Of a stretch of 46,197 bases of DNA, positions 1,355 to 44,215 are shown piece by piece; the first letter of the stretch is position 1, and every line of letters starts with the position of its first letter. The notes beneath the pieces are model-generated. The model made no database searches. It was not told the DNA's origin and worked only from the letters and a program-made list of their open reading frames with translations. Source of the stretch: Acidimicrobiales bacterium (GTDB lineage Bacteria > Actinomycetota > Acidimicrobiia > Acidimicrobiales > SZUA-35); assembly GCA_020629695.1 (NCBI GenBank), contig JAHDCV010000019.1, forward strand, positions 17,570-63,766, in the 5' to 3' direction. The translations under genes and the position numbers were made by a program.

Positions 1355-1752
1355 GATTCGAGCAGCGCGGCGGCTTCGACGAGGAGTTGGCGATCCCGGT
1401 CGTAGCTGACGAGGTCGACGGCGGAGCCGAGGTCGAGCCAACGGATCTCGTCGACCTCGTCGTTCGGCTCGAACCCGCCACCGTCCGGCTCCATCAGCCA
1501 GTACCGCACGATCTTGTCCCGCCCCCGATGGTCCACGTAGATCGAGGCCGAGAGTTCGACACCGAGGGGACCGGTGAACCCCGTCTCCTCCCGCACCTCA
1601 CGGACGGCCGTCTCCTCGTCGATCTCCCCCGGGTCGCGTTTGCCCTTCGGGTGGGACCAGTCGTCGTAGCGCGGTCGATGGGTCAGCAGGTACTCGATCG
1701 AGCCGTCCCCGTCTCGGCGGAACACGACGCAGCCCGCGGCTCGCACCGTCAT
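1351..1752 (-). CDS. Nudix hydrolase, MutT1-like
   Basis: A 133-residue single-domain Nudix hydrolase with a complete Nudix box (G-x5-E-x7-REVREETGF) at residues 37-59, so the Mg-binding glutamates are all present. The ATG at 1752 overlaps the TGA of ppk (ATGA), and its own stop overlaps the start of the M48 gene. In mycobacteria mutT1 also lies beside ppk; there the Nudix domain is fused to a histidine phosphatase domain, which is absent here. The likely substrates are nucleoside polyphosphates, dinucleoside polyphosphates or oxidised nucleotides; context alone does not separate these. Confidence 0.88.
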   Translation of the reverse strand: MTVRAAGCVVFRRDGDGSIEYLLTHRPRYDDWSHPKGKRDPGEIDEETAVREVREETGFTGPLGVELSASIYVDHRGRDKIVRYWLMEPDGGGFEPNDEVDEIRWLDLGSAVDLVSYDRDRQLLVEAAALLES

Positions 1753-3902
1753 CGGCGCCGAGGATCCCGATTGCCGAGCCGTCGCAGGCTCTCCAGGTGC
1801 AGGGTCTCGGCGTTGCCGCTCACCACCTGGGACTTCGTCCGCTCGAGCGCGAGCCGTGCGAGGTTGCGATGCGCGTCGGAGGTGCCGCCGGTCCGGCGGC
1901 GGTACACGCCGTCCGCATCCAGCTCCCACGCCAGCGTGTCGTCCTCGAGGTTGACCTGGAGGATCTCACGCAGACGGGCCTGGACGGCGGCGTCGGTCAC
2001 GGTGACCATGGCCTCCACGCGGGCGTTCAGGTTGCGGGGCATGAGGTCGGCAGAGCCGATGATGTACACGGGCTGGGAGTCCCCCGCGCCGTTCGCGAAG
2101 TAGAAGATCCGCGAGTGCTCCAGGTAGCGGCCGACGATCGAGCGGACCCGGATGTTCTCCGACTGACCGGCGATACCGGGCCGCAGGCAACAGATGCCAC
2201 GGATGATCAGATCGATCGACACGCCGGCCCGGGAGGCGTCGTACAGCTGGTCGATCAGCCCCGGATCGACCAGTGAATTCATCTTCATCACGATCCGGCC
2301 CCGGCCCGGTCCGGCCGCGATCTCGCCGTCGATGAGCTCTTCGATCGCTGGACGCAAGGTGGTCGGCGCCACGTGCAGTCGCTCGTATTCGATCCCCCGA
2401 CCGAAACCGGTCAGGTAGTTGAAGAGCTGGGACAGGTCGTTCCCGACCGCCGGGTCGGCGGTGAGCAATCCGACGTCTTCGTAGATGCGCGCCGTCTTCG
2501 GGTTGTAGTTCCCGGTGCCGACGTGGCAGTAGCGGCGCACGCCCGTGCTGTCCGACCGGACCACGAGCGTGATCTTCGAGTGGATCTTCAGTCCGACGAG
2601 TCCGTAGACGACGTGCACGCCGGCCTGTTCCAACCGCCGGGCCCAGTCGATGTTGTTCTGTTCGTCGAACCGCGCCTTCAGCTCGACGAGTGCGGCGACC
2701 TGCTTGCCGGCTCCTGCCGCGTCGATCAACGCCTCGATCACCGGGCTGTCACCCGACGTCCGGTACAGCGTCATCTTGATCGCGAGCACCTTGTCGTCCG
2801 CGGCCGCGGTCCGGATGAACTTGGTGACGGAGTCCGAGAAGGACTCGTACGGATGGTGCACGACGACATCGCCGCGGTCGAGCCGGGAGAAGAAGTCACC
2901 GCTGCCGGAGATCTCGAACAACTGCGGCGGCGTCACCGGCGACCAGGAGGGGTCCTTCAGATCCGGCCGCTTCATCCCATGGAGCTGCCAGAAGGAAGAG
3001 GCGTCGAGCAGTCCCTCCACGTGGTCGATCTCATCGGTGTCGAGCTCGAGTTCGTGGGTGAGCAGACCGAGGATGTGCGACGGTGTGTCGTGTGCGATCT
3101 CGAGCCGGATCGCCCGGCCGAACCGACGACGCCGCAGCTCCATCTCCACCGCCTCCAGCAGATCGTCGGCGTCTTCGTCGTTCAGGGTGAGGTCCGCGTT
3201 GCGGGTCACCCGGAACGGCCACGCACCGACGATCTCCATACCGGGGAAGAGATCGGGCAGATGCGCCGCGATGACCGCCTCGAGGGTGACGAAACGACCC
3301 TCGGCGACCTCGATGAAGCGCGGCAGCGAGGGCGGGACCTTCAGCCGGGCGAACCGACGGCGGTCGTCGACGGGGTCGATGCATTCGACCGCCAGATTGA
3401 GCGAGAGATTCGAGATGTACGGGAACGGGTGACCGGGGTCGACCGCCAGCGGCGTGAGCACGGGAAACACTCGATCGCGGAACTGTCCGGCGATGAAGGT
3501 CCGCTCATCGACCTCGAGATGGTCGGGGTGGACGATCTCCACACCCTCTGCGGCGAGCGCCGGGAACAGGTCGGTGGTGAGGAGTTGCTGGAGTCGCCCG
3601 TCGAGCTCCCGGACACGGTGCCGGATCTCGGCCAGCTGCCGGGGCGGTGACCATCCATCCGGCGGAGTCCTCGTGACACCGGCGGCGACCTGATCGGCGA
3701 GGCCGGCGACCCGCACCATGAAGAACTCATCGAGATTCGACGAATAGATGGCGCCGAACTTCAGCCGTTCCAGCAGCGGTTGGGTCCGGTCCTCGGCCAG
3801 GGCGAGCACACGCTCGTTGAACTGCAGCCACGAGAGCTCGCGATTCGTGAACCGCGACGCGGTATCCGTCCGCTCACTCGTCTCGTTCACAGGCACCGAC
3901 AC
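1749..3902 (-). CDS. ppk: polyphosphate kinase 1
   Basis: A full-length 717-residue PPK1, which reversibly makes inorganic polyphosphate from ATP at the membrane. The N-terminal domain has the typical SSNLDEFFMVR (54-64) and FPYISNLSLNL (160-170) segments. Both active-site histidines are visible: His441 in LKIHSKITLV, the autophosphorylated residue, and His596 in YLEHSRIFYF. YCHVGTGNYNPKTARIYED (458-476) is also typical. The start is GTG at 3902; the ATG at 3904 is in another frame. It is the first gene of a tightly overlapping ppk-Nudix-M48 operon, separated from the upstream ROK gene by a terminator. No PHO box is visible directly before it. Confidence 0.97.
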   Translation of the reverse strand: MSVPVNETSERTDTASRFTNRELSWLQFNERVLALAEDRTQPLLERLKFGAIYSSNLDEFFMVRVAGLADQVAAGVTRTPPDGWSPPRQLAEIRHRVRELDGRLQQLLTTDLFPALAAEGVEIVHPDHLEVDERTFIAGQFRDRVFPVLTPLAVDPGHPFPYISNLSLNLAVECIDPVDDRRRFARLKVPPSLPRFIEVAEGRFVTLEAVIAAHLPDLFPGMEIVGAWPFRVTRNADLTLNDEDADDLLEAVEMELRRRRFGRAIRLEIAHDTPSHILGLLTHELELDTDEIDHVEGLLDASSFWQLHGMKRPDLKDPSWSPVTPPQLFEISGSGDFFSRLDRGDVVVHHPYESFSDSVTKFIRTAAADDKVLAIKMTLYRTSGDSPVIEALIDAAGAGKQVAALVELKARFDEQNNIDWARRLEQAGVHVVYGLVGLKIHSKITLVVRSDSTGVRRYCHVGTGNYNPKTARIYEDVGLLTADPAVGNDLSQLFNYLTGFGRGIEYERLHVAPTTLRPAIEELIDGEIAAGPGRGRIVMKMNSLVDPGLIDQLYDASRAGVSIDLIIRGICCLRPGIAGQSENIRVRSIVGRYLEHSRIFYFANGAGDSQPVYIIGSADLMPRNLNARVEAMVTVTDAAVQARLREILQVNLEDDTLAWELDADGVYRRRTGGTSDAHRNLARLALERTKSQVVSGNAETLHLESLRRLGNRDPRRR

Positions 3903-16923: not shown

Positions 16924-18843
<1,920 letters not shown>

Positions 18844-18854
18844 GCGCCCCCGAC

Positions 18855-19637
18855 ATGAGCCACGCAGAACAGCTGAACCTCACCCTCCAGGTCTGGCGCC
18901 AGGACGGCCCCGATGCCGCCGGCACCTTCGAGACCTACGAGGCGAACGGCATCCCCGTCGACGCCTCGTTCCTCGAGATGCTCGACATCGTGAACGAGCG
19001 GCTCATCGAGGCGAACCGCATCCCGATCGAGTTCCCGCACGATTGCCGTGAGGGCATCTGCGGAACCTGCGGCGTGATGATCAACGGGCGGGCCCACGGC
19101 AAGGAGAAGGGCACGGCGACGTGTCAGCTCCACATGCGGAAGTTCTCCGACGGCGACACGATCGTGGTCGAACCGTGGCGGGCCCGGGCCTTCCCGGTCG
19201 TCCGGGACCTCGTCGTGGACCGGTCGGCACTCGACCGCATCATCGAGGCGGGCGGTTACATGTCGTCGGCCACCGGCAACGCTCCGGACGCCAACGAGAT
19301 CCTCATCCCGAAAGAGGCCGCCGACTCCGCCATGGACGCGGCGGCCTGCATCGGTTGCGGCGCCTGCGTCGCCGCCTGCCCGAACTCGGCCGGCCAGCTC
19401 TTCACCTCGGCCAAGCTGTGGCATCTCAACTCACTGCCACAGGGACAACCCGAGCGGTTCAAGCGAACCGAGGCCATGGTCGAGACGATGGAGCAGTTCT
19501 TCGGATCCTGCACGAACCACGGTGAGTGCTCCGAGGCGTGCCCCAAGGAGATCAGTCTCGACTTCATCGCCTACATGAACCGGGACTACGTGAAGTCGAA
19601 GCGTGTCAATCGGAAGCTCGCCGGACAGAAGAAGTAG
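18855..19637 (+). CDS. sdhB: succinate dehydrogenase iron-sulfur subunit
   Basis: A 260-residue iron-sulfur subunit that carries electrons from SdhA to SdhC. The [2Fe-2S] ligands are Cys64, Cys69, Cys72 and Cys90 (CREGICGTC then TATC). The ferredoxin-like part has CIGCGACVAACP, and CTNHGECSEACP supplies the remaining cysteines for the [4Fe-4S] and [3Fe-4S] clusters. ATG 18855 is listed; GTG 18840, which overlaps the sdhA stop, would add five residues and is equally plausible. A strong terminator follows. Confidence 0.95.
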   Translation: MSHAEQLNLTLQVWRQDGPDAAGTFETYEANGIPVDASFLEMLDIVNERLIEANRIPIEFPHDCREGICGTCGVMINGRAHGKEKGTATCQLHMRKFSDGDTIVVEPWRARAFPVVRDLVVDRSALDRIIEAGGYMSSATGNAPDANEILIPKEAADSAMDAAACIGCGACVAACPNSAGQLFTSAKLWHLNSLPQGQPERFKRTEAMVETMEQFFGSCTNHGECSEACPKEISLDFIAYMNRDYVKSKRVNRKLAGQKK

Positions 19638-19725: not shown

Positions 19726-22700
19726 TCAGTACTCCGAGGGCAGCGCCCCGGGGCACGGTGTGGCCGGCGAGGAGCTGTTCCGGGGCTGCGGTCGCCCCGT
19801 GTAGTCGAAGTCGTTCTGAACGGTGCCGGTGTCGAGGCAGCCCCCGAACCGACGGGCGTAGCCCTCGTCGGCCTCGCGGATCTGTGCCGGAAGCGTGCCG
19901 ACGCTCGTCCCGATCGACACCGCATCGATGATCCTGGCCTCCGCGGTGTGCCACAGCACGAGGTTGGTCGTCTCCACGAGACCGGCATAGGTGAGGTCAG
20001 CGACGGCGCCTCCATCGAAGTCAGGATGGGCGAGCAGGAACCGCTGTCCCGGCTGGAGCACGGTGGCCGGGAGCGACACCACGATGGCGCCGTTGCTCCG
20101 GATCTCGAACTGCCCGAGGTCGACGGGTGAGGACGTCGGGTTGAAGAGCTCGAGGAACTCGTCGGCGAGACCGCTGTCGCCGCGAGTCTGGATCATGGAG
20201 ATGACCGGGAACCGCGGCGGCGTCGGATCACTGCCGGTGAGACATCCGACGGGCGCACTCGCCGAGTTCTGCGGGTTGATCCCCGCCTCGGTCACGTTCT
20301 TCGTGAAGTCCGACGCGTTGTCCTGCGTGTCGAGGCAGTTGCCCAGGCCGCGCGAGCCGCGACGCTCGTAGCTGACGTCGAAGGGGGTCTGCGTGTCGAG
20401 AGGCACGACGCCGAGGCCTTCGTGGAACAGCGACTCGACGGTTCCGGGAATGGCCCGCGTCCCGACCTCGTCGATCGTGGTCGCCCCCGACTCCAACCGG
20501 ATGGCGATGTCGAGGGCCGACGGAATGGCGAGTTCCTCGTCGGCGGCGACCGGACCGGTCCAGCCGGGGCTGGCGACCAGGAAGTAGCCACCGGGCTGGA
20601 TGGTGTCGGGTCCGAACGGAAGGAAGTTCGTGATACCACCACCGCCGACCCGGAGCTGCATCGGGTCGAGGTCGACCGCGGCGCCGGTCGGGTTGTGGAT
20701 CTCGATGAAGTCACCGTGGTGGTACGACCCGTGGAACGCGAACTCGCTGATCACCAGACCATCGGCCAGGGGAAGCGCGCACGGCGTGGGAGGTTCGAAC
20801 GACGGGCGCGGGCGCGGCGCCCCGGTCCAGGTGAACTCGTTCAACGTACCGACGTCGTCGAGACATCCACCGTCCCATCGGATCCATGCCTGATCGAGCT
20901 GACCTCCGAGCTCGGGGAGCCCCGAGGCGACGTTACCGAGCAGCACTTGATCGATCACCGCGTTGTCGGCGGCCCTGACCAGGTTGATCTCGTCGTTGCC
21001 GTTGCCGAAGCCGCCGTGGTTGGCATCCACCGGGCCCGGATAGGCCGAGGCGCCGAGCAGATAGCGGCCACCAGGCGGAATCACGACATCGGCGAAGACG
21101 TGATTGACGTTGCCACCCGCCTCCTGCAATTCGAGCCCACCGGTCGACAGCGGCCCGGTCGAGGGGTTGAAGATCTCGACGAACTCGTCGCCGCCGCCAT
21201 TCGGCCCGTCGGTCCGCACCATCGAGATGACGAGGTGTCCGTGCGCTCCCGGGGCGGCCGGGGTCACACACGGTTCCGCCGGCGCCGAGGTGCCCTGCGG
21301 GTTCACCTGGGTGTCGAGGAAGTTCTGGAAGAAGTCCGCACCGTTGTCGTCGGTGTCGGTGCAGTTGCCGTCACCGCGACCGGGCAGCCGCTCGAACGAC
21401 ATCTCGAAGTCGCCGAGATTCTCGAGCCGCGCAAGCCCGCTGCCCTCCATGACCAACGAAGCCGAGTCACCGTCGGCCCGCGTGCCGACCGTGTCCATCC
21501 TGGACGCACCATCGCGGAGCACGAAGCCGAGCGAGTTGGGCAGGGTCGATGGCAGCAGCTGGTCGAGACCGCCCACCCCCGGGTCAGCGATCAGGAAGTG
21601 ACCACCCGGCGGGAGGAGTGTCGTCGCAGCGGCGATCGTGATCGAGTCGGTCACGCCGCCGTTGTCATAGACGTCGAGGGTCCACCCGGCGATGTCGACC
21701 GCCGAGTCGCCGGCGTTGTAGAGCTCGACGAAGTCGGTGTCGAGCCACGCATTCCGGTTGGAGAATTCGGAGATGACGACGGCCTGCTGAGCGGGCGCGT
21801 TCACACAGGGTTCGGCGGGATCGAGTGAGCTCCGTGGCGCGGTGGCGCCGGTCCAGCGGAAGTCCGACAGCGAGTCGTCGGTGTCCTGACAGCCACCGAA
21901 CCAGCGCAGGTACCCCTCGTCCGAGTTGCTGTTGTCGACGGGGAGCTCGTCGGCGACGTTGCCGATCCGGATCTCGTCGATGATCTCGTCCGTGGCGTTC
22001 ACCACGAGTTGCACGTCGGTGTTGGCGAGGAACGAGCCGGTGTCGTCCTTCGGTCCGGGGTAGTCGACCCCAGCCACCAACCAGGATCCACCGGCTGGGA
22101 TCGTGGCGTTGGTGAGACCGACACGACCCGTTCCGCCCGGACGCTGGACGGCCAGCCCGTTGGTGGTGAGTGGGCCATCGGTCGGGTTGAACAACTCGAC
22201 GAACTCGGTCACGGATCCACCGGCGCGGAATTGCTTGATCACGAGGTGGTTCGGCGGAATGGGATCGCCAGGAGTCGTGCACGGCTCCGGTGTGCTCGCG
22301 CTCGACTCCGGGTTCACGTGCCCGGCGAGATGGTTCCGGAAGAAGTCGGCGCCGTTGTCATCGGAGTTGGTGCAGTGCCCGAAGCCGCGACCGGGCAGAC
22401 GTTCGTAGGACAACTCGTGGGCCGGTGCGTCGTTCAGCGGGTTGAGGCCCGACCCGTGACGGAGGAACGCCGCCGGCTCACCGAGCCACGCACGCTGACC
22501 GGCGACGTCGGCCATCTGACCGATGTCGTTGGTGAGTCGGAACCCGAGGATGTCGGGGGTCGGCTGGGCGAACGACTGATCGGCGGCCGGGCCGCCGACG
22601 TAGTCGGTCGACCCGATCAGATAGAACCCGCCGACCGGCACGACGGTGTTCGGGCCGGTCAGGGTCAGGGCCTCGACGAGCCCGAGGTCGTTCGAGACCT

Positions 22701-23873
22701 GGACTTCCCAGCCCTCGACGTCGATCGGCGCAGACGAAGCGTTGAAGAGTTCGAGGAACCCGCCGACGGACGCCGCTCCGCGGTTCGAGTACTCCGAGAT
22801 GACCATCGAGAGCGCGCCGGCCGGCACGGCGCCGGGGCACGGCGTCGGTGTGTCCGCCGACGTTCGCGGCACCGCAGCTCCACTCCAGGTGAAGTCGTCG
22901 ATGGACCAGTCCGTGTCGAAGCAGCCGTCGCCCCGACGGACGTAGGCGATGTCGGCCGGCTCGGGAAGTGTCGGCAGCGCATCGGGTTCGTTCAACACGG
23001 TCAGATCGTCGACGATGTTGCCGGTCGCGACCTCCTCGATGAAGAGCGTCCGGTCGCGATGAACGCCGCCGGCCTGATCCGACGGACCGGGGAAGTCCGC
23101 TCCGGCGACCAGGTACCGTTGACCGGGCACGAGCATCGTGCCGGCGGTGAACGACGCACGGAGCTCGGCAGCGCTGTCGACGACGATGAAGTCCCCGAGG
23201 TCGATGCTGCTCGACGTCGGGTTGAACAGCTCGAAGAAGTCGTCTCCACCACCACCTGCGCCGTTGTTGTCACCCGTTGGTTGCCACATGGAGATCACCA
23301 GATGGTTCGGTGGGGTCGGCGTCGGCTCGGCGGCACAGGGTTCGAGCGGGGCGGCCGTCGACTGCGGATTGACCGCTGCGCCGGTGTGGTTCCGGAGGAA
23401 GTCCCGGCCGTTGTTGCCCGTGTCCTGGCAGTTGCCGAACCCGAGGGCGTCGCGCCGCTCGAACGACTGGTCGAAGCCGGCGGTCGGCTGCAGGGCGACC
23501 ACACCGATCGTCTCGGCGGCGACCGAGCCCGGCGTCGCACCGACGGACCGGGTGCCGACCAGATCGAAGTTCTCCCCGAAGTGGACGAGCTGGAGCGCCA
23601 GGGCCGATGGCAGTGTCGTCCCGAGGTCCTGGTCCGCCGAGAGCCCGGCAGCGGCGGGCGCGACGAGGAAGTGCTGACCGGGCTGGAGCACCGTGTTCGG
23701 ACCGGTGAGGACCTCGACGTGCTGGGTCCCGACCTCGTTCAGGACACCGAGCTGCACACCCTCGAGGTCGATGGCGTCGACGCCGGCGTTGTAGAGCTCG
23801 ACGAAGTCACCGACGACCGACGCTCCGTTGTTCGAGAACTCCGAGATCTTGAGGCCGATCGGATAGGCGGTGT
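19726..23873 (-). repeat. four A+B lamin-tail super-repeats within the giant gene
   Basis: Eight modules alternate between two types. A modules: 23873-23335, 22836-22279, 21804-21268, 20778-20242. B modules: 23334-22837, 22278-21805, 21267-20779, 20241-19726. A modules begin near ISEFSN and end with a GNCxDT ... EPC cysteine pair. B modules begin near HLVISM and end with a GGCxDT ... TPC pair. Each A+B unit is about 1 kb and 330 residues. Each module contains a (D/G)xxE(L/I)xNP or ELYNAG signature of lamin-tail domains. The DNA copies have diverged. Confidence 0.85.
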
Positions 23874-26800
23874 TGCGCCGGCCGAGCGAGGAGACGTGCC
23901 CGGTCGGGTCCCCGGCATCGGCGTCGACGGTCGGCTCGGACCCAGCGCACCGCGCCGTCGCGTCACCGCTTCCCGTCGGTTCCCAGCACGACGCCGTGTC
24001 GCCATCGACGCCCGGCACCGCCAGCGCGATCGACTGACCGCCGACGCCGGTGATGAGCGACGCCTGATGGGTGTCGTCCCAGAGCATCAGGTCGGCGGGA
24101 GGCGCCGCGGTCGCTCCCCCCCAGGCCACGTAGTCGACCAGGCGATCGGCGCCGTCGATCACCCAGATCGCGTCGGCGGTGGAATTGAGTACGCTTCCCG
24201 TACCGGCGAACTGGAACTCGAGACCGCTGCCGGGCGCGGTGTGATCCGGCAGTGTCTGGCCTTCGATGTTGATGAAGACGACCGCGTACGCGCCGGGTTG
24301 GAGCACACTCGCCGAGCCGTGCACATCGGTCGCCGGCAGGACCTGGTCGAACAGATCCGGTGCCTCGTTGCGGACGTCGCGATTCGCGAGTCGCCAACCC
24401 GAGAGGTCGATCGGCGCGGCACTCGAGTTGTAGAGCTCGACGAACTCGGCCACGAAGAGGCCTTCGCGCTTGAACAGCACCTCGTTCACCACCAGGTCCC
24501 CGGCGGCGGGTGAAACCACGTAGTCGGCGATCTCGAATCGGGAGGTCGCCGTTCCGAACTGACTGGGCGAACCGTCGTCGGTGACCTTCCATGTCACGTC
24601 GAACGCACCGCCTGCCGTGGGCGAACCGGACACCGCGCCCGTGGTCGGGTCGATGGTGATTCCCGGCGGCAGGCCGGTCGCGGAGAACGTGAGCCCGTCG
24701 CCCTCCACGTCGGACGCGACGATCGCGAAGGGCGTGATCGCCTGCCCGACGCCGCCGGCACGATCGGCCGGCGGCGTGACCGCCGGCGCATCGTTGTCGG
24801 GGTCGACGACGATCGTCACGGTGGCCGCGGCGGACTCGACGTTGTCGGCGTCTCGCACGGTGTATGTGAAGCTGTCGGTGCCGTGGAAGTCCAACGGCGG
24901 CGTGTATCGAACCGTGCCGTCACCGAGCGAGACGACGGTCGCACCACTGGCCGGAAGCGCGGTGATCGCCACCGTGGCGCCGTCGATCGTGCCGTCCTCG
25001 GCGTCGCTGTCGTTCGTCGTCAGATCCGGGGTCACGAGCACCGTGTCTTCGAGCACCGAGAACCCGATGCCGGCGTCATCGACCGCCACGGGAGGGTCGT
25101 TGGCCGGTGTGACCGTGATGGTCACGGTGGCCGGCTCGGAGCGGGCACCCCCGACGTCCGCCACCGTGTAGGAGAACTGATCGGTCCCGGAGAAGTCGGC
25201 GATCGGGTTGACGTTGAACGTCCCGTCACCGAGCGGGATCAGCAACGCATTGGTCATCGGCGACACGATCTCGATCGAGCCGGCATCGAGGGCGTCACCC
25301 TCGGGGTCGCCGTCGTTGTCGAGCACGTTGCCCGTGACGAACGGGGCGTCCTCGGTCGTGGTGAACGCCGGGCCGGCGTCATCGAGCGGGATCGGAGCAT
25401 CGTTGACCGCCGTGACGTCGATGCTGAGCGTCACCGGGGCCGACTCGTTCCCGGCGGGGTCGCGGACCAGATAGTCGACGGAATCGGGCCCGTTGTATCC
25501 GGGAAGTGGCGCATAGGAGAGGTCCCCGTCCACGACGGCGACCGAGACCCCCTGTGCCGACGGACCGGCGACGATCCACTCGAGCAACGCCCCCTCGGGA
25601 TCGGCGTCGTTCGCGCCGATCGCGATCGTGGCCGGCTCGTCCTCGACGACGGAGGCGAGCTCTCCGAGAGCGATCGGCGCCTCATCGACGTCGACCACCG
25701 TCACACTCACCGTGATCGTCTGCGTGTTCGTTCCGTCGGTCACCTCGATCGACAGCGTCCTGGTCGCGTCGGCTTCGTGATCCAGGCTCCCGATCAACCA
25801 GAGGTCCCCGGACCCTCCGATGGTGAAGTCACCGGCAGGGTCGCCGCCCACGATGGTGAAGTCGAGTGCTTCGTCGTCGGCGTCGGTGTTCGGCCAACTC
25901 GCGACGATCGTGTCCGAGGGTGTTGCTTCGGACACGGTCACGCTTCGGTTCTCGAGCTCCGGCGGGTCGTCGACGGCATCGACGGTGATCGTGACGGTGG
26001 AGGTGATCTCGTATTCGCCGTCGCTGATCGTGTAGTCGAACGACACCGTCCCGCTCCGTCCGGGCTCGGGCTGGAAGACGAGCTCGCCGCCGACGATCGA
26101 CACCTCTCCCCACTCGGGTGCACCCACGGCGACGATCTCGAGATCGTCGCCGTCGAGGTCGGCGTCGTTGGCCAGGGGGTCGATGCGTGTGACCGTGTCC
26201 TCGTCGGTCCGCACGGCGTCAGCGGACGCTTGCGGAGCCCGATTCGGCAGCGTGGTCGGCGCCACCGTCGTGGTGGTGGTCGGAGGCAGCGTGGTCGTGG
26301 TCGGAGGCACCGTCGTCGTCGGCGCCACCGTCGTGGTCGGCGCCACGGTCGTGGTCGGCGCCACCGTCGTGGTCGGCGCCGTCGTCGTGGTGATCACGAC
26401 CGGGTCCTCGAACGCCAGCTCCGCCGGTGGTTCCGGGGCGACGAACCCCCCGACCGACGCCACCGCGAATGCGGCACCCGTCGACGCGGTTGCCCAGCCG
26501 GTCGAGCCGACCGAGGCGGCCACCGGCACCGGGATGTTGATCGAACCGAGGGCGTTGGCGATCCAGCCGAGCGGGCCGACCACGCGCTGGAGTCGGCCGA
26601 GCCCGATGTTCAGGAAGGCGCGGACCACCCGCGGATCGAACTGCGAGCCAGCACAGTCCGTGAGCTCCTGGCGAGCGATCTCGGGCGAGAGCGGCTTCTT
26701 GTACGACCTGGTCGAGGTCATCACGTCGTAGGCGTCGGCCACCGCGACGATGCGGCCCGGCAGCGAGATGTCGTTCCCCCCGATCTTGAGCGGATAGCCG

Positions 26801-27558
26801 TTGCCGTCCCAACGCAGATGGTGCTGGTCGGCGGCGTGCACCCAGTCGCCGAGCCAGGGCCGCAACGGCTCGAGCATCACGCCACCGGCGCCCGGGTGGC
26901 CCTGGAGGATCGCCCACTCCGAATCGTCCGGGCGCCCGGCCTTGTTCAGGATCTCCGACGGCACGGTGAGCTTGCCCACGTCGTGCAGCAGGGCCGCCCA
27001 GCGGAGTTTGTCCATCTCCTCTTCGGGCAGGCCCATCTCCTCACCGAGGAGCTCGGAGTAGGCACGGACCCGCTCGGAGTGACCGCGGGTCATGCGGTCG
27101 TGTTCGTTCAGTGCCGAGAGCAGCGTGACGAGCATCTCGCCGTTCATGACGTCGCCGCGGTCCTCGCCGCGTGCCTTCGCCGCCTGCATGTCGCGGATGA
27201 GCGCGCGCCCGTTCGACGTCCGCAGGGCCGACTTCGCTCGTGAGGGTGCGTCGTCGGGGAAGACCAACGAGAGTCGCATGAGCGCAACCAGCGGCGTGAG
27301 CCGCCGGAAGGCGCGACCGGAGGCGATGAGCAGGGTGTTCGCGACCACGAACACACCGGCGAACCAGAGGTACCGGTGCACTCCGACGCGCTCGGGGGGA
27401 TAGGCCCGACCGATCCACCAGGTGAACACCACACCGATCAACACCGGACCGATGAAGATCAGCACTCGCAGCAACATGGCGGCGCGCGGATGCGCCTGCC
27501 ATCGATTCACGCCGGCAGCGTGACGCTCTGCACCCTGGGTCGGGCCCTTGCCGCTCAC
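19726..27558 (-). CDS. giant HD-GYP / cadherin-like / lamin-tail repeat membrane protein
   Basis: A 2610-residue protein. Two membrane helices lie at about 28-50 and 63-83. An HD-GYP phosphohydrolase domain follows at about 140-320 (RGHSERV, HDVGK with His192-Asp193, DGNGYP at 251-256); the usual HHE is HHL (Leu248). A hydrophobic small-residue segment at about 325-375 could be a third helix. Then come a Thr/Pro linker (387-443), cadherin/Ig-like modules (about 444-920), a putative-Ig module (920-1020) and nine lamin-tail-like modules (1020-2610). HD-GYP domains cleave cyclic dinucleotides in the cytosol; the rest should be outside. The GTG start is at 27558; no clear promoter. I know no characterised protein of this architecture. 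It could be a cell-surface adhesin linked to a signalling domain. Confidence 0.85.
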   Translation of the reverse strand: MSGKGPTQGAERHAAGVNRWQAHPRAAMLLRVLIFIGPVLIGVVFTWWIGRAYPPERVGVHRYLWFAGVFVVANTLLIASGRAFRRLTPLVALMRLSLVFPDDAPSRAKSALRTSNGRALIRDMQAAKARGEDRGDVMNGEMLVTLLSALNEHDRMTRGHSERVRAYSELLGEEMGLPEEEMDKLRWAALLHDVGKLTVPSEILNKAGRPDDSEWAILQGHPGAGGVMLEPLRPWLGDWVHAADQHHLRWDGNGYPLKIGGNDISLPGRIVAVADAYDVMTSTRSYKKPLSPEIARQELTDCAGSQFDPRVVRAFLNIGLGRLQRVVGPLGWIANALGSINIPVPVAASVGSTGWATASTGAAFAVASVGGFVAPEPPAELAFEDPVVITTTTAPTTTVAPTTTVAPTTTVAPTTTVPPTTTTLPPTTTTTVAPTTLPNRAPQASADAVRTDEDTVTRIDPLANDADLDGDDLEIVAVGAPEWGEVSIVGGELVFQPEPGRSGTVSFDYTISDGEYEITSTVTITVDAVDDPPELENRSVTVSEATPSDTIVASWPNTDADDEALDFTIVGGDPAGDFTIGGSGDLWLIGSLDHEADATRTLSIEVTDGTNTQTITVSVTVVDVDEAPIALGELASVVEDEPATIAIGANDADPEGALLEWIVAGPSAQGVSVAVVDGDLSYAPLPGYNGPDSVDYLVRDPAGNESAPVTLSIDVTAVNDAPIPLDDAGPAFTTTEDAPFVTGNVLDNDGDPEGDALDAGSIEIVSPMTNALLIPLGDGTFNVNPIADFSGTDQFSYTVADVGGARSEPATVTITVTPANDPPVAVDDAGIGFSVLEDTVLVTPDLTTNDSDAEDGTIDGATVAITALPASGATVVSLGDGTVRYTPPLDFHGTDSFTYTVRDADNVESAAATVTIVVDPDNDAPAVTPPADRAGGVGQAITPFAIVASDVEGDGLTFSATGLPPGITIDPTTGAVSGSPTAGGAFDVTWKVTDDGSPSQFGTATSRFEIADYVVSPAAGDLVVNEVLFKREGLFVAEFVELYNSSAAPIDLSGWRLANRDVRNEAPDLFDQVLPATDVHGSASVLQPGAYAVVFINIEGQTLPDHTAPGSGLEFQFAGTGSVLNSTADAIWVIDGADRLVDYVAWGGATAAPPADLMLWDDTHQASLITGVGGQSIALAVPGVDGDTASCWEPTGSGDATARCAGSEPTVDADAGDPTGHVSSLGRRNTAYPIGLKISEFSNNGASVVGDFVELYNAGVDAIDLEGVQLGVLNEVGTQHVEVLTGPNTVLQPGQHFLVAPAAAGLSADQDLGTTLPSALALQLVHFGENFDLVGTRSVGATPGSVAAETIGVVALQPTAGFDQSFERRDALGFGNCQDTGNNGRDFLRNHTGAAVNPQSTAAPLEPCAAEPTPTPPNHLVISMWQPTGDNNGAGGGGDDFFELFNPTSSSIDLGDFIVVDSAAELRASFTAGTMLVPGQRYLVAGADFPGPSDQAGGVHRDRTLFIEEVATGNIVDDLTVLNEPDALPTLPEPADIAYVRRGDGCFDTDWSIDDFTWSGAAVPRTSADTPTPCPGAVPAGALSMVISEYSNRGAASVGGFLELFNASSAPIDVEGWEVQVSNDLGLVEALTLTGPNTVVPVGGFYLIGSTDYVGGPAADQSFAQPTPDILGFRLTNDIGQMADVAGQRAWLGEPAAFLRHGSGLNPLNDAPAHELSYERLPGRGFGHCTNSDDNGADFFRNHLAGHVNPESSASTPEPCTTPGDPIPPNHLVIKQFRAGGSVTEFVELFNPTDGPLTTNGLAVQRPGGTGRVGLTNATIPAGGSWLVAGVDYPGPKDDTGSFLANTDVQLVVNATDEIIDEIRIGNVADELPVDNSNSDEGYLRWFGGCQDTDDSLSDFRWTGATAPRSSLDPAEPCVNAPAQQAVVISEFSNRNAWLDTDFVELYNAGDSAVDIAGWTLDVYDNGGVTDSITIAAATTLLPPGGHFLIADPGVGGLDQLLPSTLPNSLGFVLRDGASRMDTVGTRADGDSASLVMEGSGLARLENLGDFEMSFERLPGRGDGNCTDTDDNGADFFQNFLDTQVNPQGTSAPAEPCVTPAAPGAHGHLVISMVRTDGPNGGGDEFVEIFNPSTGPLSTGGLELQEAGGNVNHVFADVVIPPGGRYLLGASAYPGPVDANHGGFGNGNDEINLVRAADNAVIDQVLLGNVASGLPELGGQLDQAWIRWDGGCLDDVGTLNEFTWTGAPRPRPSFEPPTPCALPLADGLVISEFAFHGSYHHGDFIEIHNPTGAAVDLDPMQLRVGGGGITNFLPFGPDTIQPGGYFLVASPGWTGPVAADEELAIPSALDIAIRLESGATTIDEVGTRAIPGTVESLFHEGLGVVPLDTQTPFDVSYERRGSRGLGNCLDTQDNASDFTKNVTEAGINPQNSASAPVGCLTGSDPTPPRFPVISMIQTRGDSGLADEFLELFNPTSSPVDLGQFEIRSNGAIVVSLPATVLQPGQRFLLAHPDFDGGAVADLTYAGLVETTNLVLWHTAEARIIDAVSIGTSVGTLPAQIREADEGYARRFGGCLDTGTVQNDFDYTGRPQPRNSSSPATPCPGALPSEY
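26300..26389 (-). repeat. 18-nt tandem repeat encoding the Thr-rich linker
   Basis: Five tandem 18-nt units (plus-strand form GTCGGCGCCACCGTCGTG and close variants) encode repeated APTTTV. Similar but less regular units continue to about 26260. It lies between the membrane part and the extracellular modules and is the one slippage-prone tract in the gene. Confidence 0.8.
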
Positions 27559-27603: not shown

Positions 27604-30600
27604 CTAGGTAGGACGACCCGGTTCGATCACGAGGATGAGATCGGCCGCGTCCACGTTGCGTGGGCCATCGACGACCACCCGCGAGACGGTCCCGTCGATC
27701 GGGGATCGGACGACGGTCTCCATCTTCATCGCCTCGATCACCGCCACCTGATCGCCGACCTCGACGACGGTGCCGACGGCGACCCGAGCCGAAGCGACAC
27801 CACGGAACGGGGCACCGACGTGGCCGGGGTCCGACGGGTCGACCCGCTCGACCGCCGGCGTCTCGTCCGCGACCGAACGGTCACGGACATCGAGCGGACG
27901 GAGCTGGCCGTTGAGCCGGAACATGACGGTCCGGTCGCCCCGTTCGTCCGGTTCGGAGACCGCGTCGATCCCGACCAGGAGACGCACCCCGAGGTCCAGG
28001 CTCACCGCCACGTCGCGTTCACCCGGCTCGAGGCCGTAGAAGAACAACCGGCTGGGCAGCACCGAGGTGTCGCCGAAGCGCTCCTGATGCTCGTTGAAGT
28101 CGGCCCACGGCTTCGGAAAGAGCAACTGGTTGAGCGTCGCCCGTCGCCGTTCCGAACCCAGATCGGCACGTGCGTCATCGGGAAGCGGATCGTCGGGCTT
28201 CGCCTCGCGCCGACCGGCCAGCGCCTGGCTGCGGAACGGCTCGGGCCAACCCGCGGGCGGTGTCCCGAGCTCGCCGCGGAGGAAGCCGACGACGGAATCG
28301 GGGAGATCGACACCCGCCGGGTCAGCCAGCAGCGCCTCCGGCGAGGTGCCGGTGGCGACGAGATGGAGCGCCAGGTCACCGACGACCTTCGACGACGGCG
28401 TGACCTTGATCAACCCGCCGAGGACGGCGTCGCAGCCGGCATAGGCCGCCTCGATCGCCTCGAAGCGATCTCCCAGGCCGAGCGCGATCGCCTGTGTGCG
28501 CAGATTCGACAGCTGCCCACCAGGGATCTCGTGGTCGTAGACGGCACCCGTGGGGGCTCGGAGCCCCGCCTCGAACGGTTCGTAGAGCCGCCGGACGGCT
28601 TCCCAATACGGCTCGAGCGACCGGATGGCCGACTGTTGCAATCCGGTGGGACGGGCCCCGTGATCGGTCGCGGCGACGAGGGCCGGCATCGAGGGCTGCG
28701 ACGTCATGCCCGACAGCGGCGCCGACGCGACGTCGACGGCGTCGACACCAGCGTCGATCGCGGCCAGATAGGTGGCGAGCTGCCCACCGGCGGTGTCATG
28801 GGTGTGGAGGTGGACCGGGGCGTCGAACGCCGAGCGCAGCGCCTCGATCAGGCGCTGCGCGGCCGGCGCCCGGAGCAGACCGGCCATGTCCTTCACACAC
28901 AACACGTGCGCACCGGCATCGACCAACTCCTCGGCCCGACGGAGGTAGTAGTCGAGGTCGTACGGAGTGTCACCCGGATCCAGGAGGTCGCCGGTGTAGC
29001 AGATGGTGCCCTCGACCAGCTTCTCCGCCGCCGCCGCGGCACGGATCGCCGGTTCCATCTGTTCGATGTTGTTGAAGGCGTCGAAGATCCGGAACACGTC
29101 GATGCCCGTCTCGGCCGCCTCCTCGATGAAGGCCTCGGCCACCGCATCGGGATAGCGCGAGTAGCCGACGGTGTTCCGACCGCGCAGCAGCATCTGCAGG
29201 CAGAGATTCGGCGCCGCGGCACGGATCCGCTCGAGCCGTTCCCACGGGTCTTCCCGCAGGAACCGCATCGAGGTGTCGAACGTCGCGCCGCCCCAACACT
29301 CGAGACTCAGCAGCTCGGGAAGCAGGTGCGCGTGATGTCGGGCGCCGAGCACGAGGTCGTGGGTTCGCACCCGGGTCGCCAGGATCGACTGATGGGCGTC
29401 GCGCAACGTGGTGTCGGTGACCGCGACCTCGTGCGCCGACCGGAGTTCGGCGGCGAAGGCTGCAGGCCCGAGAGCGTCCAGCCGCTGTTTCGATCCAGGT
29501 GGTGGGGCCACGGTCGGACGTGTGGGGAGCTTCTCGGCCGGGTCCACCAGCGTCGGCGCACGTCCGTGGGGGCGGTTCACCGTCACGTCGCCGAGGTGAC
29601 GCAACAACTTCGTCGCCCGGTCGCCGGAGGCGGACGCGACCATCAGCTCGGGCCGGTCACCGATGAACGACGTCGTGACACCACCGGCCACGAACTCCTC
29701 GTCGTCGAGCACCGCCTGGAGGTAGCCGAGGTTGGTCGACACGCCGCGTACCCGGAACTCCGCCAGCGCCCGGCTCATCCTGCGCACCGCAGCGGGAAAG
29801 TCCGGGCCCCGTGCCGTCACTTTGACGAGGAGGGAGTCGAAGTAGGGCGAGATCTCGGCGCCCGCGTAGCCGCCACCACCGTCCAGTCGGATGCCGGCGC
29901 CACCCGGCTGGCGATAGGCGACGATCCGACCGGTGTCCGGCCGGAAGTCGTTGGCCGGATCCTCGGTGGTGATCCGGCACTGGAGGGCTGCGCCGCGCTG
30001 GCGGATCCGGTCCTGGGTGAGACCGAGTCCCTCGAGGGTCGCTCCCCCGGCGATCAACAGCTGGGTCTGGACGAGGTCGACGTCGGTCGTCTCCTCGGTG
30101 ACGGTGTGCTCCACCTGGATCCGCGGGTTCATCTCGATGAAGACGTGGCGGCCCGCCTGGTCGACGAGGAACTCGACGGTGCCGGCATTGACGTAGCCGA
30201 TCGCTTCGCCGAAGGCGACCGCGTCGGCGCAGAGCCGGTCACGCAGGTGCGGGTCGAGGGCGGGCGCGGGAGCGATCTCGACGACCTTCTGGTGGCGACG
30301 TTGCACCGAGCAATCCCGCTCGAACAGGTGCACCACCCGCCCGGAGGTGTCGCCGAGCAACTGGACCTCGATGTGACGGGGTCGGAGCACGGCCGATTCG
30401 AGGAACACCGTCGGGTCACCGAAGGCACTCTCGGCCTCGCGGATGGCGGTCTCGACCGCACCGGCCAGATCGGCGCGATCGTCGACGACGCGGAGTCCGC
30501 GGCCGCCACCTCCGGCCGCGGCCTTCACGAACAGCGGAAAGCCGATCTCGTCACCTGCGGCGACCGCGGCGGCGACCGAGTCGATCGCCTCGGACTGGGC

Positions 30601-30996
30601 GAGCACGGGGATACCCGCCGCCTCGGCGGCGCGTTGGGCCCGCAGCTTGCTGCCCGCCAGCGTGAGGACGTCTCCCGGAGGCCCCACGAAGGTGATCCCG
30701 GCCTCGGCGCAGGCCTCCGCGAGCTCCGGATTCTCCGACAGGAAGCCGTAGCCCGGATAGACCGCATCCGCTCCGGAGCTGATCGCGATCTCGACGATCC
30801 GCTGCGGGTCGAGGTAGTTCCGGATCGGTTGCCCGGGATCACCGAGCTGGTACGCCTCGTCGGCCTTCAAGCGGTGCAGGGAGTGCCGGTCCTCCCAGGT
30901 GTGCACGGCCACGGTGGCGATGCCCAGTTCGTTGGCGGCCCGGAACGCACGGACGGCGATCTCCCCGCGGTTGGCGACCAGCAGCTTCGCGATCAT
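27604..30996 (-). CDS. pyc: pyruvate carboxylase
   Basis: A 1130-residue three-domain enzyme that makes oxaloacetate from pyruvate, bicarbonate and ATP. The biotin carboxylase part opens with KLLVANRGEIAVRAFRA and has the ATP-grasp glycine loop KAAAGGGGRGLR. The carboxyltransferase part begins at DTTLRDAHQS and includes CVKDMAG and HLHTHDTAG. The C-terminal biotinyl domain carries the biotinylation site EAMKMETVV. Length and order match alpha-type (single-chain) pyruvate carboxylases. The ATG at 30996 is preceded by GGAGG. It replenishes the TCA cycle served by the sdh and mdh genes of this window. It is divergent from the DUF368 gene. Confidence 0.97.
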   Translation of the reverse strand: MIAKLLVANRGEIAVRAFRAANELGIATVAVHTWEDRHSLHRLKADEAYQLGDPGQPIRNYLDPQRIVEIAISSGADAVYPGYGFLSENPELAEACAEAGITFVGPPGDVLTLAGSKLRAQRAAEAAGIPVLAQSEAIDSVAAAVAAGDEIGFPLFVKAAAGGGGRGLRVVDDRADLAGAVETAIREAESAFGDPTVFLESAVLRPRHIEVQLLGDTSGRVVHLFERDCSVQRRHQKVVEIAPAPALDPHLRDRLCADAVAFGEAIGYVNAGTVEFLVDQAGRHVFIEMNPRIQVEHTVTEETTDVDLVQTQLLIAGGATLEGLGLTQDRIRQRGAALQCRITTEDPANDFRPDTGRIVAYRQPGGAGIRLDGGGGYAGAEISPYFDSLLVKVTARGPDFPAAVRRMSRALAEFRVRGVSTNLGYLQAVLDDEEFVAGGVTTSFIGDRPELMVASASGDRATKLLRHLGDVTVNRPHGRAPTLVDPAEKLPTRPTVAPPPGSKQRLDALGPAAFAAELRSAHEVAVTDTTLRDAHQSILATRVRTHDLVLGARHHAHLLPELLSLECWGGATFDTSMRFLREDPWERLERIRAAAPNLCLQMLLRGRNTVGYSRYPDAVAEAFIEEAAETGIDVFRIFDAFNNIEQMEPAIRAAAAAEKLVEGTICYTGDLLDPGDTPYDLDYYLRRAEELVDAGAHVLCVKDMAGLLRAPAAQRLIEALRSAFDAPVHLHTHDTAGGQLATYLAAIDAGVDAVDVASAPLSGMTSQPSMPALVAATDHGARPTGLQQSAIRSLEPYWEAVRRLYEPFEAGLRAPTGAVYDHEIPGGQLSNLRTQAIALGLGDRFEAIEAAYAGCDAVLGGLIKVTPSSKVVGDLALHLVATGTSPEALLADPAGVDLPDSVVGFLRGELGTPPAGWPEPFRSQALAGRREAKPDDPLPDDARADLGSERRRATLNQLLFPKPWADFNEHQERFGDTSVLPSRLFFYGLEPGERDVAVSLDLGVRLLVGIDAVSEPDERGDRTVMFRLNGQLRPLDVRDRSVADETPAVERVDPSDPGHVGAPFRGVASARVAVGTVVEVGDQVAVIEAMKMETVVRSPIDGTVSRVVVDGPRNVDAADLILVIEPGRPT

Positions 30997-40568: not shown

Positions 40569-42401
40569 CTACCCCGTCGGACCGCTCGCCTCGGACTCCG
40601 TCGCACCGTCGGCGACCACCCGTGTGCCGCCGATCCAAGCGGCGTGGAGGCGGGTGTAGACACCGCCGGCGGCGACGAGCTCGGCGTGCGGACCGACCTC
40701 GACCAGCCGACCCTCGTCGAAGACGAGGATCCGGTCGGCCGCTTCGGCGGTGGCGAGCCGGTGGGCGATCGAGACCAACGTGCGCCCCTCGGCCAAGCGT
40801 CGCAGGGCAGAGGTCAGCGCCTGGTCGGTTTCGGGGTCGACCGCGGAGGTCGCCTCGTCGAGAATCAGCAACCCGGGATCGGCCAGTGACGCTCGAGCCA
40901 GCGCGACCAGTTGTCGTTCGCCGACGCTCAGCGCACCACCACGGTCACCGACGTGGGTGTCGATGCCCTCGGGCAGTCGTTCGAGCCACTCGTTCAGGCC
41001 CAACCGATCGAAGGCGTCGACCACATCGGCCCGTGTGGCACCGCGACGACCGTGGGCCACGTTGCGCTCGATGGTCGTGTCGAAGAGGAAGCCGTCCTGC
41101 GGGACGAGCCGCACGAGCCCGAGCCGGTCGGTGGAGGACAGCCCGGCGAGTTCGACCCCAGACACTTCGATCGAGCCCTCGGTCGGATCGGCGAGACGGA
41201 CGAGCAGCCGGGCGAAGGTCGTCTTCCCGGAACCCGTCTCGCCGACGACGGCGATGTTCTCGCCAGGTGCGACGTCGACCTCGACCCCTCGCAACACGTC
41301 GACGTCGTCGACGTAGGCGAAACGGAGATCGCGGACGCGGATCGAGGCCGGCCCGGCCGGCGGGGCGCCGACGGCATCGTCCGGTTCCGTCAGATCGATC
41401 GGCTCGTCGAGCAGCTCGAGGATCTTTCGCCAACCGGCCACGGCGGTCTGCGTCTGATCGAGGGTCTCCCCGAGTTCGCCGATCGGGCCGGCGAGCAGGT
41501 TGGCGAGGAAGACGCAGGCCAACAACTCGCCCGACGTGAGCCCGAGGTCCTCCCCGAAGAAGACCCCGATGACGATCACGACCACGGTGGCGATCGCCCC
41601 GAACAGGTCGCCGAGCACCGCGATCCCAGCCATGTAGCGATTGGCCTCCAGGCGCGTCTGATACCGCCGTTCGATCGTCGACTCGAGCCGCTCGGCCACC
41701 ACCGACTCGGAGCCATCGGCCCGGACCACCTCGGCACCGGCCACCGTCTCGCTGAAGGCGGCGAACATCTCGCCGACCCGGGTCCGGAACCGGTCGTAGG
41801 CCCGGAGCTGCCGGCTCTGGAGGAATCGGAGCACCGGCACGATGGGAGCGAACACCAGTGCCACGGCCACGGCGATCACCCACGAGTACCAGGCGAGCGC
41901 CACGAAGGTTCCGACGATCACGATCGGATTGACCGTCCAGGAGAACATGCCCCACTGGGCGAAGCGGGCCAGCGCCTCGATGTCGGAGGTGACCCTGGCC
42001 ACCAACACACCCTTCGGCCGGGCCGACTGAGCGGCCATCGACAGCTCGTGCACTTTGGCGAAACCGTCCCGCCGCAACCCGGCCAAGGCGATCTCGGCCC
42101 GATCGACGAGACGTCGCTGGGTCCACCACGAACCGGCCATCGCCAGAAGGACGACGGCCGCCGCGGCGAACGCCGCCCGCCAGACCGCACCCAGCTCCGG
42201 CCCGCCGTCGACGAGGATGCCGTCGTCCATCGCCCGCTGGATGAGAAGGGGCACGACCAGTCGTGCGGCGGCGACGAACAGGCCCAGGGCGACCGTCGTC
42301 TTCAAGCCGTCGCGCAGCGACGGCGAAGTCGCGAGGCCTCGACGGAGGACCCGGAGTGCACCCTTGCCGTCGTCACCGACGACATCACCCATGCCGATCA
42401 C
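40569..42401 (-). CDS. ABC exporter half-transporter with canonical ATP-binding domain
   Basis: A 610-residue half-transporter: six membrane helices (about 30-330), then a nucleotide-binding domain. Walker A is GETGSGKTT, Walker B is [12 protein letters not shown] with the catalytic Glu, and the H-loop is IAHRLA. The signature motif is LSVGERQ rather than LSGGQ. The gene overlaps the end of the other half-transporter (GTGA), so the two probably form a heterodimer. Together they define one full and one degenerate ATP site. The substrate (drug, lipid or peptide) cannot be inferred. Confidence 0.93.
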
Positions 42402-44215
42402 GAGGGCACCTCTTCGTTGCCGGCTTCCGCCCGGGCGGCTCGTTCGTAGGCCTCGACGATCGCGGCGTAGTCCGGATGCTCGAGCAGCTGTTCGTGGGTG
42501 CCGGTCGCCTCGACGGTGCCGTGCTGGAGGAACACGACCCGGTCCGCCAGACGGATCGTCGACAGCCGCTGGGCGACGACGAGCACCGACGCCCCGATGC
42601 CGTCATCGAGACCCGACAGGATCTCGGTCTCGACCCGGGGGTCGACCGCGGAGGTGGCGTCATCGAGGAGCAGGAGCCTCGGCCGGCGGACCAACGCCCT
42701 GGCCAGGGCCACCCGCTGGCGTTGCCCCCCGGACAACGTCACGCCACGCTCCCCGACCACAGTCTCCAGACCGGCCGGGAGGTCGTCGACCGTCTCCGCG
42801 ACGCGTGCCAGCTCGATGGCGGCCCGGATCTCGCCGTCGGACCGCACGCCGGTCGGGTCGATGTTGGCTCGAACCGTGTCGGCGAACAGAAAGGCCTCCT
42901 GGAACACCATCGACACCGCTGCGGCTCGGGCACCGGGATCGATCTCGTCCAGGTCGTGGCCGTCGAGGCACACGCTGCCCTTCGTCCGCTCGGTGAGTCC
43001 CGCCACGGCGTGGATGAGGGTCGACTTGCCCGACCCGGTCGAGCCCACCAGTGCGACCGTCTCGCCCGCCGCGACGTCGAAGCTGACCCCCACGACGCCG
43101 GGCGCTCCATCGTCGTGGCGACGCTCGAGGTCGGAGACGGTGAGTTCGAGCGGCCCGGTGCCCGGCAGGTCGGCGCCGCGCCGCCGGGGCGGCACGTCGT
43201 CGACGAGGATCTCGTCGATCCGATCGACGGCGACGACCGCCGGCGGCAGCGACGACAGGAAGAAGCTGACGATCCGGGTCGGGAGCACGAGGAGCTGGAA
43301 CAGCGAAACCACCTGCACGACGTCGCCGGTCGTGATCGCCCCGGCCTCGACGCGGATGGCGCCGACGACGACCACGACGACGGTGCCGAACGTGGGCAGC
43401 GCATCCATGATCGAGTCGAACGCCGCACGCAGGTATCCGACACGCACCCGGCGGTCCTGCAGGTGCGCGACCTCGGCGTCGAACCGCTCCTGCTCGTGCG
43501 CGGCCAACCCCAGCGTCTTCACCACCAGCGAGCCTTCGAAGCTCTCGTGGGCGACCGAGGACACGTCGCCGATCGCGTGCTGTACCTGTGCGGCCGGCCC
43601 TTCGATCTTCGCCGAGTAGATCCGGTTGGCGACGCCGAGCACGGGGAAGATCGCCAGTGCGATCAGTCCGAGCAGCGGATCGACGAGCAGGAGCGCAACG
43701 GCGGCACCGACGATCAGCACGATCACCCCGACGGCGAAGGGAAGCGGGTTGAGCGCGTTGGTGCCGACTTCGGTGTCGTTGTCGGCCCGGGCGAGGAGGT
43801 CACCCGCCGGACGCTGCCGTGTCCATCCGAGTGGCAGGTTGACGTAACGATCGGCCAGCTCTCGACGGATGTCGGCTTGGACCCGAGCGTTCAACATCGC
43901 GGCGAAGTAACGACGGAAGACGACCCCGACCGCACGGATGAGGGCCACCGCGAGCACGAGCGCCAGGAGGCCGGCCACCGTGCCATCGGCGGGCCGGCCG
44001 GTGTCGAAGGTGGGCAGGATGATCTCGTCGGTGACACGACCGAGCACGACGGTCGACACGATCGTCGCGACCGAGAACGCCGACGCTCCGACCATGGACA
44101 CCGCGAAGACCCACGGGTGCATCCGGATGAACCGGACCACGAGGCGGAAGCCACGGGCCAGCACCGTTCGACGATCCGTCGCCCCGGCTTCGCGCTGGTC
44201 GCCCCCGTGATCCAC
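42398..44215 (-). CDS. ABC exporter half-transporter with degenerate ATP-binding domain
   Basis: A 605-residue half-transporter with six membrane helices and a nucleotide-binding domain: Walker A GSTGSGKST and a canonical signature LSGGQRQ. The Walker B reads LLLLDDATSAVD, so the catalytic Glu is Asp519, and the H-loop reads VAQRLST, so the switch His is Gln549. These changes belong to the inactive ATP site of heterodimeric exporters such as TM287/288 and BmrCD. It is the promoter-proximal gene; the GTG at 44215 has a TAGCCT box 6 nt upstream. Confidence 0.93.
   Translation of the reverse strand: MDHGGDQREAGATDRRTVLARGFRLVVRFIRMHPWVFAVSMVGASAFSVATIVSTVVLGRVTDEIILPTFDTGRPADGTVAGLLALVLAVALIRAVGVVFRRYFAAMLNARVQADIRRELADRYVNLPLGWTRQRPAGDLLARADNDTEVGTNALNPLPFAVGVIVLIVGAAVALLLVDPLLGLIALAIFPVLGVANRIYSAKIEGPAAQVQHAIGDVSSVAHESFEGSLVVKTLGLAAHEQERFDAEVAHLQDRRVRVGYLRAAFDSIMDALPTFGTVVVVVVGAIRVEAGAITTGDVVQVVSLFQLLVLPTRIVSFFLSSLPPAVVAVDRIDEILVDDVPPRRRGADLPGTGPLELTVSDLERRHDDGAPGVVGVSFDVAAGETVALVGSTGSGKSTLIHAVAGLTERTKGSVCLDGHDLDEIDPGARAAAVSMVFQEAFLFADTVRANIDPTGVRSDGEIRAAIELARVAETVDDLPAGLETVVGERGVTLSGGQRQRVALARALVRRPRLLLLDDATSAVDPRVETEILSGLDDGIGASVLVVAQRLSTIRLADRVVFLQHGTVEATGTHEQLLEHPDYAAIVEAYERAARAEAGNEEVPS

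Follow-up and report, generated by a model that had tools for sequence, protein, structure and literature searches.

We analyzed a stretch of 46,197 nucleotides (hereafter, the window) from contig JAHDCV010000019.1 of an Acidimicrobiales bacterium (GCA_020629695.1; 4.2 Mb in 121 contigs), and focused on a single gene. This gene (19726..27558, minus strand) is a stop-free open frame of 2610 amino acids (aa) with a GTG start, and its product ends in a long array of lamin tail domains (LTD). An earlier description made from the letters alone, hereafter the sequence-only reading, dealt with the array and missed its context: as judged from the open frame, the array is fused to a membrane HD-GYP domain. 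Our preferred reading, to which we give a probability of roughly 55%, is that the array forms the distal, outside half of a one-chain transmembrane HD-GYP receptor, with an adhesin-like rod as the sensor. Such a protein would tie an outside LTD array, a type of element with no settled role in bacteria, to an output inside the cell that can be tested.

The N-terminal part starts with two hydrophobic segments (aa 26-51 and 63-81; 27316..27483, on the minus strand like all features of the gene given below), with Kyte-Doolittle peaks of 2.52 and 1.66. They are followed by an HD-GYP domain (aa 149-311; 26626..27114; PF13487, E 5.9e-32) that scored 111.2 bits in the Pfam scan of the protein and 117.9 bits in a second search, for a cut-off of 27.2, and that is related by sequence to the solved HD-GYP structures 5z7c, 4mcw, and 4r8z. 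Both motifs are intact (HDVGK and HHLRWDGNGYP), and the domain is predicted to be a cyclic di-GMP (c-di-GMP) phosphodiesterase. The genome has 30 matches to GGDEF and 4 to HD_5, which makes a c-di-GMP network likely. A further, weak hydrophobic segment (aa 356-374; 26437..26493), with a Kyte-Doolittle maximum of 1.4 at aa 356, is proposed to be the membrane exit. Next come a Thr/Pro-rich linker recognized in the sequence (26245..26436) and a region of immunoglobulin (Ig)- and cadherin-like repeats devoid of cysteines (aa 439-1018; 24505..26244), with matches to Big_9, Cadherin_4, Cadherin_5, Cadherin, and He_PIG. Five stretches match the Tandem-95 repeat family NF012211 (218.4 bits versus a curated cut-off of 90). 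The simplest topology would place the enzyme inside the cell and the rod outside.

The rest of the protein consists of nine stretches matching the LTD family PF00932, which are all the LTD matches in the genome. The whole protein scores 298.6 bits (cut-off 34.3), and five of the nine stretches exceed the cut-off when scored singly. An odd first copy, L0 (23863..24504; PF00932 stretch 1017-1147), precedes four A-B units in strict alternation, from 23862 down to 19729: A1 (23308..23862), B1 (22816..23307), A2 (22255..22815), B2 (21790..22254), A3 (21244..21789), B3 (20767..21243), A4 (20218..20766), and B4 (19729..20217), the latter being the C-terminal end of the protein. The units measure 1047, 1026, 1023, and 1038 nucleotides. 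At the protein level, modules of one type share 35-43% identity (the range is the same for A and for B), and modules of different types 22-32%; the DNA identity between modules was uninformative. In a tree of the nine modules, the branch splitting A from B has a support of 92/96, and of 100/99 once the modules of a congener (see below) are added. In the nine-module tree, the branch that separates A from all remaining modules, L0 among them, is supported by just 69/79. These results agree with the sequence-only reading, which had counted nine modules, eight of them in an A-B alternation with a period of about 1 kb, and had taken A and B as separate types. The lamin coiled-coil rod has no counterpart here, as no filament family was found among the Pfam matches to E 1.

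The fold of the modules was assessed with AlphaFold models. The model of A3, taken singly, has a mean predicted local distance difference test (pLDDT) of 77.8 and a predicted TM-score (pTM) of 0.81, and matches the lamin tail 3gef with a Z of 10.0 over 103 residues. The model of an A-B unit has a pTM of 0.53 and is poor in the tails; in a structure search it still matched 3gef with an E of 1.2e-4 and a TM of target of 0.67. The ten-residue blocks with the cysteines have pLDDT values of 28-49 in the A-B model and of about 68 in the A3 model. The models point to a lamin-type Ig fold, mainly for the A core. The best structural match to A3 is a DUF4876 protein of Bacteroides, BT_1938 (PDB 4q1z; Z 12.9, root mean square deviation 3.2, 164 residues, 12% identity over the alignment). 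This match runs through the A3 tail, and the similarity may thus extend to the region behind the LTD core. Searching the solved structures by sequence with the A-B and module profiles retrieved no LTD (best E of 0.56 and 0.42, both unrelated).

The 19 cysteines of the protein are distributed unevenly: one in the first 438 residues, none in residues 439-1018, two in L0, and 16 in the A-B array. The sequence-only reading had noted that nearly all cysteines of this half of the protein form pairs about 25-35 residues apart, which in fact applies to all 16 cysteines of the array. They make eight pairs, with a spacing of exactly 31 in the four A modules (1377-1408, 1729-1760, 2066-2097, and 2408-2439) and of exactly 28 in the four B modules (1546-1574, 1890-1918, 2232-2260, and 2574-2602). 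When 16 positions of the array were drawn at random 200,000 times, eight or more neighboring gaps of 25-35 occurred in a single draw, and more than five equal gaps never did. One terminal pair per module, as had been claimed, is thus found in all eight A and B modules; L0 deviates, since its cysteines (1191 and 1204) are only 13 apart.

Comparison with related proteins gives these pairs further meaning. Of 65 relatives of the HD-GYP protein (described below), 64 have an even number of cysteines behind the HD-GYP domain (zero in 12 of them). Among the 53 proteins with any cysteine there, 52 have an even number, with counts of 12 to 26 included. For comparison, the part before (the inner part) has an even number in 33 of the 65. 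We also counted the cysteines in 46 tails of relatives: both are present in 36, neither in 9, the first alone in 0, and the second alone in 1. In this count, tails cut at locus ends were dropped, a first cysteine was also accepted at four places further up, and the pattern requires an Asn that the B modules of the window lack, the window not being part of the input; three of the nine tails with neither cysteine (in L090, L093, and L094) are false pattern matches. Since the spacing is fixed, the cysteines are lost in pairs, and the ectodomain counts are even, one disulfide per A or B module is strongly suggested as the likeliest state; it would close the tail behind the Ig-like core, as the sequence-only reading had put forward. 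A stiff rod and a packing of A against B, which that reading envisaged as well, are conjectural. The alternatives of metal binding or of a reduced state of the paired cysteines seem very improbable to us, given the same parity of the ectodomains and the near absence of tails with a single cysteine. The outside location, also part of the sequence-only reading, is backed by parity together with the topology. The even-cysteine rule offers an easy means of deducing how such proteins lie across the membrane.

To define the family around the HD-GYP domain, we used the N-terminal 338 aa as a query. It matched 45 of 61 relatives (16 had no match), with up to seven matches per genome, some of them restricted to the HD part. 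At E 1e-50, it matched 18 of the 296 genomes sampled from the phylum. From stretches chosen among the matches (most of the long or near-full ones and those with A-B matches), 73 frames were collected at E 1e-30. Eight were dropped because they ran off the stretch or had at most 60 residues behind the HD-GYP domain, leaving the 65 proteins mentioned above. Their outer parts range from 162 to 2283 aa. The motifs HD.GK and HHxxx[DE]GxGYP are both present in 64 of the 66 proteins formed by these and the window. One conserved HD-GYP end with many interchangeable outer ends is a natural set to study how c-di-GMP phosphodiesterases are switched from outside. As a side observation, the N-terminus with two transmembrane segments and HD-GYP (26544-27558 in the window) occurs as several paralogues per genome, whose outer parts are as different as Thr/Pro-rich stalks and repeats of the Ig, cadherin, and LTD types. 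LTDs of the L0 type, which carry a short cysteine pair of their own, are frequent among the outer domains (21 of 66 proteins with a local profile). In two genomes, two HD-GYP receptor genes of the family adjoin on one strand (L055:869-6561 and L056:1035-5300).

The A-B unit was searched separately with a profile made from the eight units of the window and its congener. It matched 12 of 39 genomes of the family, most of them weakly, 8 of 298 of the order at 1e-15, 11 of 395 of the class at 1e-12, and 10 of 396 of the phylum, where, besides the window, the matches were mostly partial and in other proteins. A scan of genome contigs gave one locus, the congener, and a scan of viral contigs gave no match. 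HD-GYP proteins with one C-terminal A-B unit were found in genomes of several families, namely in G011, G028, G024, G179, G269 (two), G113, G519, G597, and G559, the latter protein being cut by a contig end. In G519 there is an additional A-like LTD upstream of the end unit, and in G011 neither an Ig domain nor L0 was found between the linker and the A-B unit. Seven further end units (in a second protein of G113, in G228, G322, G498, and G579, and twice in G250) lie in frames that run off the stretch before any HD-GYP domain could be seen. Cysteine gaps in the relatives are mostly 31 in A and 28 in B, with ranges of 28-34 and 23-28. The comparison shows that the A-B pair is an ancient terminal unit of the receptor family, placed at the C-terminus. 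When 17 of the 31 units were used for a tree across families, the A and B labels needed 2 changes, compared with 11.6 after shuffling. The A modules did not form a strict clade, as two of them (G024 and G498) fall among B; a single A clade was not rejected (approximately unbiased test, p 0.438). An A-B unit is also seen in secreted-looking proteins without HD-GYP (L099, L100, L101, and L102) of another family, where B has neither cysteine.

The congener (G001) corresponds to contig JAHDBV010000074.1 of an Acidimicrobiales metagenome-assembled genome, whose A1-B1 stretch agrees with that of G001 letter for letter. It encodes a counterpart of 2602 aa downstream of the same gene that precedes ours in the window (27604-30996), presumably a pyruvate carboxylase, with 79% identity between the two carboxylases. 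The counterpart has four A-B units in the order of the window, and in the tree each module pairs with the module at the same position. Identity between the two proteins is 84% in the HD part, 54% in the linker and Ig region, 48% in L0, and 59% in the array. Because the congener has the same four units in the same order, the four copies arose in this genus before the split of the two species. The eight units of the window and congener form one group with a support of 80/84 (not a starred branch), and the ancestral state was likely a single A-B unit. The proposal that the array grew by duplication of an A+B pair thus finds support in this grouping and in the single end units of the relatives. 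The comparison of copy number between related genomes that had been suggested as a check gave four units in the window and congener and mostly one elsewhere.

How could such a protein work? It would act as a one-component c-di-GMP phosphodiesterase. The multiplied A-B units would lift a binding tip beyond the cell wall and multiply it; contact, binding, or pull outside would then modulate the HD-GYP domain on the inner side, and with its activity the breakdown and level of c-di-GMP. A more specific version, which we put forward tentatively, is a single-chain adhesion receptor. In it, a disulfide-locked lamin-tail rod would grip a surface or a partner, the pull or binding would be relayed directly across the membrane to the phosphodiesterase of the same chain, and contact itself would reset the signal to attach or leave; the genus would have tuned reach or grip by multiplying the ancestral A-B tip from one to four.

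Two other functions of the rod have to be considered. It could be a passive adhesin or wall stalk whose sole task is to attach the cell to a surface or neighbor, with a constitutive HD-GYP domain and a fusion that anchors without sensing. Ig/cadherin and LTD repeats are indeed typical rod material, and evolution is faster in the ectodomain than in the HD part. Yet the enzymatic motifs are preserved in 64 of the 66 proteins of the family, and a genome may encode several paralogues that differ in their ectodomains; both features fit sensors better than anchors, and we regard the stalk as unlikely. Alternatively, the receptor may sense a polymer, with the LTD array binding extracellular DNA. Binding of DNA has been proposed for the LTDs found on secreted DNases and ExeM-like nucleases, according to excerpts of one study (PMC4486849). 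The available part of another mentions a different proposal, that LTDs direct proteins to membranes, and reports that ExeM without its LTD still degraded DNA (PMC6085458). For the LTD part of our protein, a charge of about -137 and an isoelectric point of 4.1 were computed, which argues against plain DNA binding unless ions bridge the two; we find this second alternative unlikely.

Several observations weigh against the sensing receptor with a disulfide-locked rod. Weak points are the third membrane segment (1.4 on the Kyte-Doolittle scale) and the A-B model (mean pLDDT of 63.6). In two of the 66 proteins of the family, only one HD-GYP motif is present. LTDs were seen in just 23 of the 66 with local profiles, so the common function of the family, whatever it is, does not depend on them. 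There is one exception to parity, L146, with three ectodomain cysteines, and the 65 members are related and not independent tests, a kinship that the binomial value for parity ignores. Finally, some B modules have neither cysteine, although such loss is again paired: one in G028, and B-type modules in proteins of one family without HD-GYP (G588 twice, G568, and G518).

The protein resembles known one-component HD-GYP phosphodiesterases of the membrane in its membrane helices and its HD-GYP domain with HD.GK and HHxxxDGxGYP. Unlike them, it has as its putative sensor an outside rod of great length, which is made of Ig/cadherin and LTD repeats and placed C-terminal to the enzyme. The main text of a review of c-di-GMP sensing, in the part available and leaving aside its supplementary tables, names neither immunoglobulin nor cadherin (PMC8846402). 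With bacterial PF00932 proteins it shares the Pfam domain and, in predicted structure, a core matching lamin tails; it differs from them in the regular A-B alternation, the gaps of 31 and 28, and the fusion to a transmembrane HD-GYP domain. A tail cysteine pair with a gap of 27 also occurs in other LTD proteins of the phylum, which we take from their sequence to be nucleases. In the Lap system (LapD/LapA), c-di-GMP is coupled across the membrane to a large adhesin on the cell surface, but by two separate chains, the adhesin and the c-di-GMP protein, and with a signal going from inside to outside; here, both are in one chain. Bacterial LTDs in print are described, in the excerpted text, as tandem repeats and on membrane-associated hydrolases (PMC6085458). 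Among open-licence full texts, we found no paper having HD-GYP and lamin tail together, none for Ilumatobacter with cyclic di-GMP, and none on surface sensing that combines Ig-like domains of an ectodomain with c-di-GMP; those matching HD-GYP with cadherin or with Acidimicrobi concern other subjects, as judged from the listing. All this is weak evidence of absence.

The remaining neighbors of the gene are ordinary. An iron-sulfur protein, presumably resembling a succinate dehydrogenase subunit, is encoded at 18756-19637 on the plus strand, and further away the window has genes for a polyphosphate kinase (1749-3902) and an ABC transporter (42398-44215), both on the minus strand.

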